From a virus: DNA of 25,485 bases. The notes under the pieces were generated by a model that worked only from the letters and a program-made list of their open reading frames with translations, searched no databases and was not told the DNA's origin. Below, piece after piece: positions 14,399 through 25,227 of this stretch. The stretch lies in the IMG/VR virus record IMGVR_UViG_3300025151_000268, positions 1 through 25,485 of that record. The stretch is one strand, 5' to 3'. A program made the position numbers and the translations under genes. Position 1 is the first letter of the stretch, and each line of letters begins with the position of its first letter.

Positions 14399-16384
14399 AT
14401 GGCAGACCAAAAACACTTAGATTTTCTTTTTGACACTCTTGAGGCCAATGAGGTCGCGGAGAGCGATCAGCCGGTAAGTCAGCCAGACGTAGCTGTTCAG
14501 CCAATTGCGTCTCCCGATACTAAGAAAAGGGACGTAAAATATCTTTTTGATACGCTTGAGCGTAATGAGTCAAAAGAGCTTACTTCTGCTACGTTTGCTG
14601 ATGTGGCAAAGTCTGGTGGCTTACGAGCTATTGCTGGCCCGGCGCAGGCATTCTTGGCCCTTGTGGAGTCATCCGCAGAATCGGCTGGCAATCCATATCC
14701 TGAAAATCTATACACCGTTGAAGAATTTACTCAAATGATTCTTCAGATGGAAGGGAATAAAGATATGGGGGCTGGGCAACGGTTTGTCAGGGACACTCTC
14801 GCAAATGTCATTCCCATCGCGTTAGAAATTGGTCTTACCAGAGGCGCTACCATTCCGCAAACAATAAAGGTTACTGGGGGCGTTGGTCTTGGCTCTGGCT
14901 ACACGCAGTTTGTTGAAGACCCAACTCAAGCAAAAACAGGAAGCACCGCTAGGATGACCAATGCCGCTCTTTCGTCATTAATAGGGATGATCGCCAGCGG
15001 AGGCACTTCCCTATTCGGAAGAGGTATTGATTACCTGCGTGGGGCTAGGGGTACACGAGAATCTGCAAATGTTGACATCCGCCCAGATGTTGATACCCGG
15101 ATGGAGGGTGCAGCCACAATAGAGCAGGCGCGAGATGTCGGAATCACCCTGACACCGGGGCAGGCGACCTCTGACATTGCGCTGCAGACCCAAGAAATGT
15201 CAGCAGGCGGAAGGTTGAGCAGGCAGTTAGTCAGAGAAATTGGCGACACAGTACAATCCAACCAAAAAGCCGCAGATGCCTTAATTGATGACCTGTATTC
15301 TGTGCTTTTGCCAGAGGGCAAGGCAACGATCCACGCGAATGTTTCTGCGTTGTATGAAAAATCTGGCAAGCAGCTACTGAGGGGCGATTCTCTGGATGCT
15401 TTTAATGATCTCAGAGCATATAGCCCAAGAGGTACGGATAAGCTGTCTGTAATTGAAAAAACAATAGCAAATATAACTAACAACCCAGCGACAAATAGAG
15501 CGTATGCAGAGCTTCCAGAAAACTCTATTGGCAGAGCAAATTTAATAGTCCGTAACTTGCAGACTCAAATTAACGCGGCTAAAGAGGCTGGAACCGAAGA
15601 CTTTATTCCCCTAAAAAATCTAAGAGAAGATCTTTTAAAAATACTGGACGAGGCTTCTCCAGAGTACGCGTTAGCTCGCCAAACCAGTCAGAGGGAAAAA
15701 GTAGCCCAAGAGGTTATAGAGGCCTTAAGGGCTGATAAAGGTTCTGCTGTCGTCCCCTACGCAAATAGCGCCGAAAGGTTTGTTGGCGCGTTTGATAACG
15801 TAAAAGCAAAAGAAAAGCTCTTCGAGGGCATCAGCAACCTGCCAAACAAGGCCATGCAAGCTGAAGCTAGGGCAAAGTTTGAGCTTTTAATAAAGTTGCT
15901 ACCTAAAGTTGCTAGTCAGCAGAAGTTTTTAGAACAGCGACTAGCTCAGTCTGGAGAGAGAATATTGCAAGAACGCGCCTCACCTGAAATTGGCTTTCTT
16001 TTTAGCGCGTTAAACGCAATAAACACCAACAATGACACCAATTTTTTAAGGTTTATCTTAGACCCGTCAAAAACATCAGCGCGGCTTAGAGAGTTAAATC
16101 TTGAAAGAAACACGGCATCAGAAGAGTTTTTAAAGAAAGTAGGAATCGTTTTTGGCGAGATAATTGATGATTACGCAACAGAAAATGTAGCTGGTATGGA
16201 CTTTGCGGAAAATTTAGAGCTATCTGGTTTAGATCGGCAGGCAATGGGTCGATCTACCGATTCTGCAAAAGCAAAGGCTTACAGAAACCTGCTCCAATCT
16301 GGCCGACTAGATGAGTTTATGGCAAAAAATCCCGAGGCCTATAAGATACTGCGCGATGCTGGAAAGGCTCAAGCCATCGTTTAG
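14399..16384 (+). CDS. Probable large internal virion / ejection protein
   Basis: A 661-aa protein. I start it at the ATG 7 nt after the previous stop; an earlier start at 14363 overlaps the preceding gene. Residues 5-18 and 44-57 repeat the motif [YF]LFDTLExNE, a duplicated short linear motif. Residues 75-220 hold several hydrophobic or amphipathic stretches (GGLRAIAGPAQAFLALVES; ALSSLIGMIASGGTSLFG). Helical regions follow, beginning GITLTPGQATSD and QTQEMSAGGRLSRQL, which is a pattern I associate with phage ejection proteins. The C-terminus is charged. Its stop codon directly abuts the stop of the opposite-strand gene. Confidence 0.65.
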   Translation: MADQKHLDFLFDTLEANEVAESDQPVSQPDVAVQPIASPDTKKRDVKYLFDTLERNESKELTSATFADVAKSGGLRAIAGPAQAFLALVESSAESAGNPYPENLYTVEEFTQMILQMEGNKDMGAGQRFVRDTLANVIPIALEIGLTRGATIPQTIKVTGGVGLGSGYTQFVEDPTQAKTGSTARMTNAALSSLIGMIASGGTSLFGRGIDYLRGARGTRESANVDIRPDVDTRMEGAATIEQARDVGITLTPGQATSDIALQTQEMSAGGRLSRQLVREIGDTVQSNQKAADALIDDLYSVLLPEGKATIHANVSALYEKSGKQLLRGDSLDAFNDLRAYSPRGTDKLSVIEKTIANITNNPATNRAYAELPENSIGRANLIVRNLQTQINAAKEAGTEDFIPLKNLREDLLKILDEASPEYALARQTSQREKVAQEVIEALRADKGSAVVPYANSAERFVGAFDNVKAKEKLFEGISNLPNKAMQAEARAKFELLIKLLPKVASQQKFLEQRLAQSGERILQERASPEIGFLFSALNAINTNNDTNFLRFILDPSKTSARLRELNLERNTASEEFLKKVGIVFGEIIDDYATENVAGMDFAENLELSGLDRQAMGRSTDSAKAKAYRNLLQSGRLDEFMAKNPEAYKILRDAGKAQAIV

Positions 16385-16768: not shown

Positions 16769-16813
16769 TACATTGATTCCTTAGCAGACCAGCATTTTAC
16801 GTTTAACTTCATA

Positions 16814-17431
16814 TTAAATTAGCCTCGGTTGGGTCGGGATCTTCTTAAATGTATTTGCTGTATTTTGTTTTTTCCCTTTCGGGAAGCATGGCAACGGCGT
16901 CCATCGTAATTTATGGCGCAAGTGCTTCTTTTCTTTTTTCGAGCCATGAAAAAAAACGTAACGATGCTTTGAGCTACGGAAAACTCTGTTTGCCGATATA
17001 CCAGCGTGATGTCTTGGGTGCTTGCCGTCTTCAGCTGCCATGTCTGTCCTTTCTTTGCTTGTGCCACAAAAGAAAAAATTACACGCTTGGTAAACTATTC
17101 CGCTATGACCTTGCGCGGTGTCAGCGTAAGACACAATGACTCGCGGTTTTGGCAACTTTTTTATCGCATTAGCCACCAAAAATGAGGCTTGGTTTGGTTT
17201 GTTGTCCTTCAAAACCAGCCTATTTAGCTCTAAAACCAAATCTTTGTTCTCCGGCCCGCACACCCCAGTGCAAACAAATGGCGATGCCGGGGAGCCAAAC
17301 GTAACGACCCCAAGTAAGTCAAGGCCGTCGAATAAACCAAACGCAAAACTAATAGAAGGCACTCTTGAGGCGTAATGAGTGTTTACTATGAGCGGCGTGG
17401 CCTCGTCATAACTAATTGATTTCACATTCAT
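16814..17431 (-). CDS. mom: Mom family DNA adenine methylcarbamoyl-type modification protein
   Basis: A 205-aa homologue of phage Mu Mom, a GNAT-fold enzyme that modifies adenines in phage DNA so that many restriction enzymes fail. Hallmarks: SISYDEATPLI at the start, SISFAFGLFDG, GVVTFGSPAS, LELNRLVLKDNKPNQASFLV, the catalytic-region block VSYADTAQGHSGIVYQACNF (residues 100-119), and SKHRYVFFHGSKKEKK with a following FPKGK near the end. The ATG lies 10 nt after the stop of a 54-aa gene. A GTG at 17449 overlapping that gene is the alternative start. Mu mom is also translationally coupled to a small upstream gene (com), but the upstream gene here lacks the Com zinc finger. The family call is firm; the actual base made is inferred. 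Confidence 0.9.
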   Translation of the reverse strand: MNVKSISYDEATPLIVNTHYASRVPSISFAFGLFDGLDLLGVVTFGSPASPFVCTGVCGPENKDLVLELNRLVLKDNKPNQASFLVANAIKKLPKPRVIVSYADTAQGHSGIVYQACNFFFCGTSKERTDMAAEDGKHPRHHAGISANRVFRSSKHRYVFFHGSKKEKKHLRHKLRWTPLPCFPKGKKQNTANTFKKIPTQPRLI

Positions 17432-17441
17432 ACGCGATCGT

Positions 17442-17606
17442 TCAGTCACCCTGCCTTGGCTTCGGGTAGCGGATTATCTCAAGAGGCGTCTCATCTACAT
17501 CCTTGAGTGGCTTAGTACTCAGATCCATCATTATGGCTACGTCCTGCTGTAGCCGCTTTGCCATAGATTCTGCGGCCTCTAGGGCCAGTTGTGCGTCATT
17601 CTTCAT
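17442..17606 (-). CDS. 54-aa protein coupled between the ninB-like and mom genes, unknown
   Basis: A small gene with AAGGA six bases before its ATG. It starts inside the upstream stop (ATGA) and ends at or inside the start region of mom, where a GGGTGACTGA sequence overlaps the alternative GTG start of mom. The protein begins MKNDAQLALEAAESMAKRL, an amphipathic helix, followed by DVDETPLEIIRYPKPRQ. There are no Cys or His residues, so it is not a Com-like zinc finger. It may couple translation of mom to that of the gene before it. No family is recognised. Confidence 0.7.
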   Translation of the reverse strand: MKNDAQLALEAAESMAKRLQQDVAIMMDLSTKPLKDVDETPLEIIRYPKPRQGD

Positions 17607-18027: not shown

Positions 18028-18546
18028 CTAAGACACCCGTTTTTCTTGTATCCATTCCATTAAAGCACCTAGCGGCTTGAGGTGTTCCCGCCCTACAAAC
18101 CAGCCTGCACCATGCCCCAAGTCTTTTTGCACCATCACCTTTTGGGCCTGCCCAACGCCGATGAACCCCGGAATATCAAACACATCATCTTCCCCTGTCT
18201 TGCAAACCAGTACCGCTACCTGCCAATCAAACTTTGAGTGCTTTGCGAAAAGCAAATTGCCATTCGGAGAGAACGTCCCTTTTACCTGTACCTGTAATTC
18301 TCTTCTGCCACAGTCCACATAAATGTCAGTGCCTAAGTCTGGCCCCATCTCGCTAAAGCCGTATTTCATCCCTAGCGCCTTCCTTACGACAATCTCTGAA
18401 TGAACACCTAAAAGCTCCACGTCCAAGTCAGATCTTTTGGTGTCCACCCTCATGTTGGGTATGCCGGTATCCCGCGACATGTGAGAAGCCGTCCTAGCCA
18501 TGCGGATAGACATATCTAATTCTGATTTTCTAAGCCTTACCTTCAT
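18028..18546 (-). CDS. PD-(D/E)XK-type nuclease
   Basis: A 172-aa protein with the core of a PD-(D/E)XK nuclease: E51 in GVHSEI, D74 in GTDIYV, then Q87-V-K89 in LQVQVKG. This is the E...D...(E/Q)xK pattern, with Gln in place of Glu as in several nuclease branches. A strand-helix tail with FDWQVAVLVCK follows. It could be a recombination nuclease or resolvase, or a nuclease against host DNA. The next gene overlaps it slightly only if that gene used its longer start. The ATG has no clear ribosome site (GGCCGAAAATCC precedes it), and a 77-nt inverted repeat lies about 40 nt upstream, so translation may be regulated by structure. Confidence 0.65.
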   Translation of the reverse strand: MKVRLRKSELDMSIRMARTASHMSRDTGIPNMRVDTKRSDLDVELLGVHSEIVVRKALGMKYGFSEMGPDLGTDIYVDCGRRELQVQVKGTFSPNGNLLFAKHSKFDWQVAVLVCKTGEDDVFDIPGFIGVGQAQKVMVQKDLGHGAGWFVGREHLKPLGALMEWIQEKRVS

Positions 18547-18587: not shown

Positions 18588-18664
18588 ATGCCCACTTGGC
18601 CCACTTGGCCCCTGTTCTGGGGGGCCGCCCCCTAAAACACGGGCAAAGCGGGCAATGTGGGCAT
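18588..18664. repeat. 77-nt imperfect inverted repeat made of 9-mers
   Basis: The left arm 18588-18625 and the reverse complement of the right arm 18627-18664 agree at 31 of 38 positions around one central base. Each arm is made of three 9-mers. Left: ATGCCCACT, TGGCCCACT, TGGCCCCTG. Right, reverse complement: ATGCCCACA, TTGCCCGCT, TTGCCCGTG. Each arm then has a G-run that closes the stem. It sits between the ATPase and nuclease genes. No T-run follows on the minus strand, so it is not a standard terminator. Confidence 0.9.
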
Positions 18665-18692: not shown

Positions 18693-19880
18693 TCACCAGT
18701 TTTCACCCCTCCAGCGGTAATTTTTGGCATTGTTGCCGGGGTTCCTGCGGAGCTTCAGCATGTTGCCTTTCAACAAGTCCATGCAGTTGCGCAGGGTTTT
18801 CTTAGTGCATTCGTTGGGGTTCAGGTGGTCATCATTCAGCATCCTAAATAGCTCTGCTTGGCTATGCTCAGTGCCATCCTTCATCACGGACTCGAGGAAC
18901 AACACCTCATCCTCATATTTGGCAAATGCCTTGCCGACGTTGATCTGGGCCATCTGCTTCTTCTTCAAGCCACTGATGTCATCTTCATCAAGGAACTCAA
19001 CAGAATCCACAGACTCCTCGTAGCCGACTGTTTCGTTAGTCTGCCTATATCGGAAGCCGCCAGAAAATGAAATCTGCCTACGATCCTTTTCGTTTATTAC
19101 TAACAGTTCTTGATAGTCTGCAAACTTGTCGTTTAGTGGGTCAAGGCCAAACATATTGTCTACATCCGCCTTCAAGTCCTGCACGCCCTCATAGATCAGG
19201 CGGCCGTCTAGCGAGCGATGTTTATTACAGTGGCCCAGCAGGATCACAGTCCCGCCAGCAGCCGCGAACTCTCGGAAAGTATGCAGAATATCCGCCACCT
19301 CGCCCTTGTTCAGCACTGATGCAAACTTCTTCAGGGTGTCGCAGATGATGATCTTGCCCTCTGCCTGACCCTCTTCGCGGATCAAGTCGAGCATTCTCAG
19401 GGCGTCATTGGCGTTTCTTAGCGCTGGATCTTGCGAGTTGGCTAGGGTAACCATAGCCATACCATGCTTCATGCCCATTTCTGCCTTCTGGACAATACCT
19501 CTGGCCCCGTCATCCTCGTTGAAGTAGATAACGTCCGAGCCTTTTATCAGGTTATTGCGGATTGATTTAAACAGGTTGCCTAATACCCAGACCGTCTTGC
19601 CGGCCCCAGATGGCGCGTAGACGAGCGTTACGGTTCCGGTAGTAATCATGCCTGAGATAACTTCGCGTTCGTTAGCGAGCCTCTGCTTAAGCTCAGCGAG
19701 CCGATGGTGGGTGCTGGCCGCTTGTAATCTCTGGAGGGCTGATAATGGTTCGTTGATGTACTTCTCGTAACGTCTAGGCTTTTCGTCTAATAGCTTTTTG
19801 TATTCTTCTGCTGGGTTGTACGTTTCATTCATTTCTGCGTACATGGCTTGCATGGACGCGATGAAGTCGTCGTCTCTCAC
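18693..19880 (-). CDS. RepA/DnaB-like AAA ATPase (AAA_25 type)
   Basis: A 395-aa RecA-fold ATPase, probably a replicative helicase or recombination motor. Walker A is APSGAGKT at about residues 89-96. Walker B is IIICDT near 178-183, followed by VILLGHCNKH as the RecA-type third motif. Upstream, VIYFNEDDG resembles the AAA_25/RepA pattern. The C-terminal 90 residues carry a winged-helix-like domain (HSQAELFRMLND). I take the GTG with AGGGAG five bases upstream as the start; a GTG two codons earlier has no spacer to its ribosome site. It opens the leftward operon from the divergent region. A RadA-like repair ATPase is the alternative. Confidence 0.8.
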   Translation of the reverse strand: MRDDDFIASMQAMYAEMNETYNPAEEYKKLLDEKPRRYEKYINEPLSALQRLQAASTHHRLAELKQRLANEREVISGMITTGTVTLVYAPSGAGKTVWVLGNLFKSIRNNLIKGSDVIYFNEDDGARGIVQKAEMGMKHGMAMVTLANSQDPALRNANDALRMLDLIREEGQAEGKIIICDTLKKFASVLNKGEVADILHTFREFAAAGGTVILLGHCNKHRSLDGRLIYEGVQDLKADVDNMFGLDPLNDKFADYQELLVINEKDRRQISFSGGFRYRQTNETVGYEESVDSVEFLDEDDISGLKKKQMAQINVGKAFAKYEDEVLFLESVMKDGTEHSQAELFRMLNDDHLNPNECTKKTLRNCMDLLKGNMLKLRRNPGNNAKNYRWRGENW

Positions 19881-19981
19881 TGTCACTCCCTATCCCATTT
19901 TTCGTTGAGCGGAACCGCCAACTCTGAATCAGCCGCCTGAGCTTGTCAACAAATTGCTGACCTTTTTTAATTAGGGGCAGA

Positions 19982-20031
19982 TGTCATCAAGTGTTATCAT
20001 GTGTAGTCAAATGTAATCAAATGATGTAAAG
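19982..20031 (+). repeat. Tandem 10-bp repeat array upstream of the annealing-protein gene
   Basis: Four consecutive units TGTCATCAAG, TGTTATCATG, TGTAGTCAAA, TGTAATCAAA (consensus TGTNATCAAR), followed by a degenerate TGATGTAAAG. The 10-bp period places each copy on the same face of the helix, as expected for a protein-binding array (operator or iteron). It ends 30 nt before the start codon at 20062 and lies in the only gap between two divergent operons (19881-20061). Confidence 0.85.
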
Positions 20032-24753: not shown

Positions 24754-24871
24754 GTTCCACTTTGACACCCAGCACCATCGAAGGTTCTGTTTTGAAACTT
24801 GGCCCGTGCCAGATTGGAACCGACCTCGTTTGTGAGTGCTTACTAACCTCGACTGCGTTCCAGATGGGAAC
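24754..24871. promoter_or_regulatory. Four operator-like 15-bp dyads (GTTCC-N5-GGAAC)
   Basis: GTTCCACTTTGACAC (24754-24768), GTTCTGTTTTGAAAC (24784-24798), GTGCCAGATTGGAAC (24806-24820) and GTTCCAGATGGGAAC (24857-24871). The last is a perfect dyad; the others have one or two changes. The start-to-start distances are 30, 22 and 51 bp. Such a set is typical of a dimeric repressor or origin-binding protein. Confidence 0.7.
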
Positions 24872-24981
24872 TGACCCCCCGGCCCCCCTAGCGCAGGCTC
24901 GTTATTATTATTGTACCCACCCACCCACAAAAAAAGCCAAAACTGAAAAGTCGATAATCCTTGCAATCCCCCTTAGCACAA

Positions 24982-25043
24982 GTGTTACGATGTTACTTTC
25001 GGTAACACTCAAAGGTAACGAAAGGTAACACTGGAGGTAACAC
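24982..25043. repeat. Cluster of GGTAAC repeats before the 38-aa gene
   Basis: Direct copies of GGTAAC start at 25001, 25014, 25024 and 25036; three of these extend to GGTAACAC. Two inverted copies precede them, GTGTTAC (24982-24988) and GTTAC (24992-24996). The last copy overlaps the GGAGG ribosome site, so a protein bound here could block translation or transcription. Confidence 0.75.
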
Positions 25044-25045
25044 TT

Positions 25046-25162
25046 ATGATTAAGATGATTGGTAAGCAGGTAAAGTCTAGGACAATGCATCTGACTGACG
25101 TTCAGGCAGGGGCTGTGGTCTTGGGTATTGTGGGCTTGGTCGTACTGGTTTTTATTATCTGA
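25046..25162 (+). CDS. 38-aa single-span membrane peptide
   Basis: A small gene with GGAGG eight bases before its ATG. The basic head MIKMIGKQVKSRTM is followed by one long hydrophobic helix (residues 20-38: AGAVVLGIVGLVVLVFII). It lies directly behind the GGTAAC cluster and ahead of a weak terminator. A toxin-like or membrane-regulator role is possible; no family is recognised. Confidence 0.6.
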   Translation: MIKMIGKQVKSRTMHLTDVQAGAVVLGIVGLVVLVFII

Positions 25163-25163
25163 T

Positions 25164-25195
25164 CTTTAATCTTTAGGATTTAAGGGTTGTTTTTT
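25164..25195 (+). terminator. Weak terminator after the 38-aa gene
   Basis: CTTTAATC (25164-25171) and GATTTAAG (25177-25184) pair at 7 of 8 positions, followed by GTTGTTTTTT. The A/T-rich stem makes it weak. Confidence 0.45.
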
Positions 25196-25227
25196 GAATC
25201 AAGTAATATAGGATAGGGAGGGAAAGG

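Follow-up and report, generated by a model that had tools for sequence, protein, structure and literature searches.

A conserved head-to-head iteron element beside a winged-helix AAA_25 ATPase gene of uncultured marine phages: a putative replication origin

The 25,485-nt stretch of viral DNA analyzed here (IMG/VR record IMGVR_UViG_3300025151_000268, positions 1 to 25,485; "the window") contains a 77-nt inverted repeat at positions 18588 to 18664, next to the gene of a helicase-like ATPase. Such a repeat may be a protein-binding site, for instance at an origin of replication, or the DNA copy of a structured RNA, and the question was which of these explains it. The reading favored here, with a probability of about 0.6, is that of an iteron-type site that is read by the winged helix of the adjacent ATPase and is most likely the replication origin of the phage.

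Architecture of the repeat and its neighborhood

A total of 31 of the 38 arm positions were paired around a single central base. This was the top score for a palindrome with 38-bp arms in the window; 20 controls generated from the whole window by a first-order Markov model yielded 21 to 25. The original prediction had described six 9-mers in this repeat, all of which were present, with a degenerate innermost 9-mer in either arm, and a period of 9 was assigned to both arms by Tandem Repeats Finder. Its location inside an operon without a terminator also held: the flanking genes are on the same strand, and a scan found no terminator-like site between positions 17500 and 20200. The features are as follows.

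18588 to 18614, plus strand: iteron array 1, ATPase-distal arm, three 9-bp units; a homologous arm exists in 104 of 104 relatives
Units of array 1, plus strand: ATGCCCACT at 18588, TGGCCCACT at 18597, TGGCCCCTG at 18606
18614 to 18638, no strand: core GTTCTGGGGGGCCGCCCCCTAAAAC, which reads on the minus strand as the family's TTTTAGGGGGCGG-type box
18638 to 18664, minus strand: iteron array 2, ATPase-proximal arm, three 9-bp units
Units of array 2, minus strand: ATGCCCACA at 18656 to 18664, TTGCCCGCT at 18647 to 18655, TTGCCCGTG at 18638 to 18646
18693 to 19886, minus strand: RecA-fold AAA_25 ATPase with a C-terminal winged helix (PF13481, E value of 3.4e-9, above the cutoff; phrog_6357), the proposed origin-binding initiator or helicase
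18708 to 18914, minus strand: codons of the winged helix, residues 325 to 393 (AlphaFold pLDDT of 83.9; structural matches with Z up to 9.4)
18789 to 18791, minus strand: codon for residue 366 of the recognition helix, which is Arg here and Leu in 13 of the 13 relatives with CCCC/ACCC iterons

Beyond the repeat lies a gene at 18028 to 18546 (minus strand), followed by a NinB-like gene. The former had been taken for a nuclease gene, an assignment left unsupported by the searches, which gave neither a Pfam match above the cutoff nor a PHROG match. Annealing-protein-like, SSB-like, NinB, and NinG-like genes were identified by Pfam and PHROGs in the neighborhood. A Mom-like DNA modification protein (PF25680, E value of 1.2e-35) is encoded at 16814 to 17449 of the window.

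The C-terminal 70 residues of the ATPase were modeled as a winged helix with a mean pLDDT of 83.9 and R366 in helix 3, and this model resembled HxlR-, PadR-, and MarR-type domains with Z scores up to 9.4. The model of the full-length protein was poor (pLDDT of 56.6). A low-confidence model of the ATPase core matched RecA-fold helicases, including RepA of RSF1010 (1nlf; Z of 9.4, rmsd of 4.5, 18% identity). As modeled, the ATPase resembles the RecA fold of RSF1010 RepA; a RepA-like helicase would be expected to form a hexamer and to unwind DNA.

Conservation of the element with the ATPase

The relatives were 104 distinct ATPases retrieved from IMG/VR with the window ATPase and a divergent relative as queries. 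In all 104 cases, an element of a common plan was located downstream of the ATPase gene, composed of a C-rich array, a core of the TTTAGGGGGCGGG type, and a facing G-rich array, with 9-bp units of the xxTGCCCAG type. Of 493 neighboring unit pairs in these elements, 440 were spaced by exactly 9 bp, and the arms contained two to six units in nearly all elements. The element was still present at eight loci where an extra gene separates it from the ATPase gene, and the gene following the element varied among the relatives. Because of this distribution, the element is, judged by gene order, an attribute of the ATPase and not of the downstream gene.

AT-rich flanks accompany the element in the window's clade only, so that an AT-rich unwinding region next to it is not kept outside this clade; in other clades, the array directly adjoins the stop codon and the next gene. 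One clade has the arm types swapped relative to the gene, and the core is inverted in L059, L079, and L197. An interpretation of the L059 group as an inversion of the whole element was rejected, because L189 and L192 possess swapped arms with the usual core direction.

Sequence comparisons outside this collection yielded little. In INPHARED, no relatives of the ATPase were found at 1e-5, merely three weak matches at E values up to 1; they were absent from the PLSDB plasmids at 0.01, and no sequence in the PDB matched the ATPase. Distant-profile and other queries against IMG/VR retrieved only the same ATPase family again. No cultured relative of the ATPase turned up, and the portal protein of a related near-full-length record shared about 25% identity or less with those of HMO-2011/CRP-type phages. 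Apart from one collagen-like coding repeat, an exact 29-mer scan with one array type gave stretches that the contig name or inspection of the site assigned to the phage group, the ATPase gene having been checked for in part of them. Exact iteron matches outside the group were judged to be unrelated. Two were coding repeats, one collagen-like (L091) and the other in a Chloroflexaceae MAG (L113); the third was an array with GGGCAAACT units close to a DeoR-like gene of Burkholderia sp. 4M9327F10 (L112:5443-5471).

Two further observations concern individual relatives. The 58-kb record G021 (IMGVR_UViG_3300046167_000364) contains two complete elements, at 16798 to 16954 and 52774 to 52914, and may represent two phage genomes joined in assembly. 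In L003, L004, L005, L009, and L010, the gene directly after the element (MERLLxIDNDFRDLIPPLRLDERAELEASI...) resembles the start of a ParB-domain protein.

Evaluation of a structured RNA

The original prediction had offered as one option an RNA switch that controls the downstream gene, and a hairpin in the transcript might likewise stabilize the mRNA. The minus-strand RNA of the repeat does fold strongly, with −59.6 kcal/mol and a z score of −7.1, and 0 of 200 shuffled sequences were as stable. Moreover, four pairs were changed on both sides in the window's clade, with a covariation score of 0.093 that exceeded those of the shuffles (0.040) and of slid controls. All four double changes were, however, inside the iteron units, which is expected if one binding site governs both arms. 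Agreement between the arms at the XYCCC columns of 60 distinct elements was 0.75, 0.93, 1, 1, and 1, the value of 1 for the CCC columns being given by construction since these were part of the search pattern. The spacer columns agreed between arms at just 0.27 and 0.32, compared to 0.65 to 0.80 for units of the same arm. Even in the window's clade, several spacer pairs were unpaired in most sequences. The center was noncomplementary in several clades, comprising at least 11 distinct elements in which the core has its G-runs to the left and right on one strand. Conserved 9-mers and a covarying stem had both been named as features to look for in relatives, and the comparison separated the two: the cores of the 9-mers were kept, and the pairing of spacers and center was not.

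With spacers and center unpaired and the arm types swapped in one clade, an RNA structure under selection is very improbable. The varying downstream gene and the lack of an Rfam match of the repeat at gathering score also argue against an RNA element, which in addition cannot account for a distant site that switches together with a protein helix, as described below. The conserved feature is the core of a putative binding site, not the hairpin, which results largely from similar sites facing each other, although extrusion at an origin would be conceivable.

Joint changes of the recognition helix and the iterons

Residue 366 of the ATPase is Arg in 91 and Leu in 13 of the 104 relatives. The iterons were of the GCCC type in exactly the 91 Arg366 proteins and of the CCCC/ACCC type in exactly the 13 Leu366 proteins. 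Only the protein columns 340, 347, and 366 split the iteron classes perfectly, and all three are within the winged helix. On a tree calculated from the ATPase domain only, the Arg/Leu state switches at least 7 times, and well-supported branches account for at least 4 of these switches; helix and iterons switched jointly at every state change. A sign test limited to the supported branches comprises 4 independent pairs, with which a p value of 0.05 is unreachable.

Evaluation of this covariation needs to consider the proximity of the two partners. At the main element, the iterons are located tens to hundreds of bases from the helix codons. Because the array is so near to the winged-helix codons, a joint transfer of both is conceivable, and the covariation at the main element could be a joint swap by one recombination event. 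In pairs such as L142/L144 and L057/L044, the sequences diverge at the border between the ATPase domain and the winged helix.

A second site allows these possibilities to be distinguished in part. Next to the small terminase gene, in the late/early intergenic region, some genomes contain a half-site made up of the core box and a single array. Its distance from the codons of the winged helix, going round the genome, is roughly 7 to 9 kb. Nine records possess both sites, and in all nine the half-site type agreed with the helix, being GCCC in six records with Arg366 and CCCC in three with Leu366. The half-site flank is nearly identical in G020 (Leu) and G024 (Arg), whereas the iterons differ; G013 versus G009/G010 represents a second, separate half-site switch on the tree. 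This complete match, with two independent switches, removes the doubt caused by joint transfer in part. That distant iterons track the recognition helix is best explained by binding, as far as the compared sequences allow this conclusion. It is thus highly probable that the ATPase reads the iteron units as double-stranded DNA via its winged helix, and we infer physical binding from this agreement in cis and in trans.

The half-site was not found in the genome of the window. Its positions 24865 to 25221 match the late/early intergenic stretch of the relatives, with GGGAACT followed by C-runs, without the half-site array, and CCTCCCTATCCTA is located at 25209 on the minus strand. A cluster of GGTAAC repeats occurs at 25011 to 25029 and its surroundings, upstream of a short open frame.

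Proposed assignment as a replication origin and competing functions

An origin bound by the adjacent RepA-like ATPase had been proposed originally. The binding part of this proposal is well supported by the covariation of helix and iterons, while replication is the most likely function of the site. The early genes scanned encode recombination and antirestriction functions, and no DNA polymerase, DnaB, or other initiator was among them. In relatives from the window's clade, a gene for a CHC2/DnaG zinc ribbon (PF01807) overlaps the start of the ATPase gene; this gene was not found in the genome of the window. The assignment as an origin is favored because of the helicase-like core of the ATPase, the lack of another initiator in the genes scanned, the zinc-ribbon gene, and the fact that iteron-binding initiators are common. 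A switch of the GC skew at the repeat, which the original prediction had suggested looking for, was not seen: the skew follows the coding strand, and its cumulative maximum at 16248 marks a flip in gene direction and not the element. The skew was therefore uninformative with regard to an origin.

A replication initiation event at this site may proceed as follows. Two head-to-head arrays of 9-bp units flank a core of G/C runs, and the winged helix of the ATPase would read the duplex DNA. The ATPase would assemble on both arrays and open or remodel the DNA. It may then act as, or recruit, the replicative helicase, and the host polymerase would copy the genome. Both the replication start and the helicase action at the element are inferred from the features given above.

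Alternatively, the ATPase may be a transcriptional regulator that acts through its winged helix, with the main element as the target in its own operon and the half-site as that for the late genes. The similarity of the domain to MarR, HxlR, and PadR regulators and the position of the half-site directly upstream of the late operon agree with an operator. On the other hand, the main element follows the ATPase gene inside the operon, and scans revealed no promoter-like site at the main element or beside the half-site. Several genomes lack the half-site, whereas the main element occurs throughout, and a RecA-fold ATPase core would be unusual in a plain repressor, which makes an operator function unlikely. 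A centromere-like partition site or a recombination or packaging site bound by the ATPase is still less probable. Iteron arrays and a DNA-binding ATPase are typical of partition systems, too, but the ATPase matches AAA_25/RecA-type and not ParA-type proteins. The annealing-protein-like, SSB-like, NinB, and NinG-like neighbors and the half-site near the terminase genes would fit recombination or packaging. Against all of these functions stands that no other replication initiator was found among the genes scanned of these phages.

Under the preferred assignment as an origin, a single RecA-fold winged-helix ATPase might even be origin recognizer and helicase without a separate loader. The half-site would tie the replication start to late transcription or packaging, and the specificity domain together with the iterons would form a mobile cassette that sets replicon incompatibility. 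This extended model is speculative and rather doubtful as a whole.

Comparison with known systems

No description of the element was found in the literature searched. The statement that no element of this form has been described was nevertheless too strong, because helicase/winged-helix replication proteins with a downstream stem-loop origin are known. In the archaeal plasmid pRN1 and phage BIP-1, a replication protein with helicase and winged helix is encoded directly 5' of a stem-loop origin of about 100 nt (PMC4234260). The phage system is similar to pRN1 with respect to a replication-type protein with a winged helix and an element downstream of its own gene. The pRN1 protein is composed of a primase-polymerase and an SF3 helicase, whereas a RecA-fold AAA_25 ATPase without a primase domain is present here. 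Moreover, the pRN stem-loops keep structure and not sequence, whereas in the present element it is the sequence units that are preserved and not the structure; a base-paired stem conserved independently of sequence, as in pRN1, was not found, with spacers and center being unpaired.

The O protein of lambda is no ATPase, and its gene itself contains the iterons, with an AT-rich tract next to them. In lambdoid phages, the phage-coded O protein binds the iteron array of ori (PMC7466680). A phage-coded protein and iterons in or beside its own gene are thus common to both systems; compared to lambda, the element described here combines a G/C core with two facing arrays of 9-bp units and has no conserved AT-rich tract. 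Iterons are also present in oriV of RSF1010. RepA of this plasmid is a hexameric helicase relative with a RecA fold (1nlf; PMC8965321), but there a separate RepC melts the origin, at which RepA is loaded, while here the ATPase itself includes the DNA-binding domain. GP46 of lactococcal phage F13 is a RecA-like helicase grouped with RepA and AAA_25, and neither an iteron array nor a winged helix is reported for it in the available part of the same publication (PMC8965321). The RepA_N initiator of the PLE satellite was shown by EMSA to bind iterons with inverted subrepeats (PMC7145576). This is again a mobile-element initiator with iterons, which differs in family (RepA_N), host, and iteron type. 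Lambda O, pRN1, and PLE RepA illustrate that it is common for an initiator to bind iterons or stem-loops located within or next to its gene.

The AAA_25 family was described in 2022 as being without known function (PMC8965321). The data presented here suggest what one group of AAA_25 proteins may do and how the genomes of a group of marine phages, which have no cultured close relative, might be replicated. The switch at residue 366 leads to a precise prediction: exchange of one amino acid should alter the preferred iteron base. The half-site makes a link between replication and late genes testable.

A different type of repeat was present on the other side of the ATPase gene. About four copies of the AT-rich 10-bp repeat ATGTAATCAA are located at 19981 to 20023 of the window, between the divergently oriented ATPase and ERF-like genes in their promoter region, and may possibly be an operator or an unwinding region. 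Several relatives contain similar AT-rich repeats beside a TTGACA...AGAGTTA promoter-like pair.
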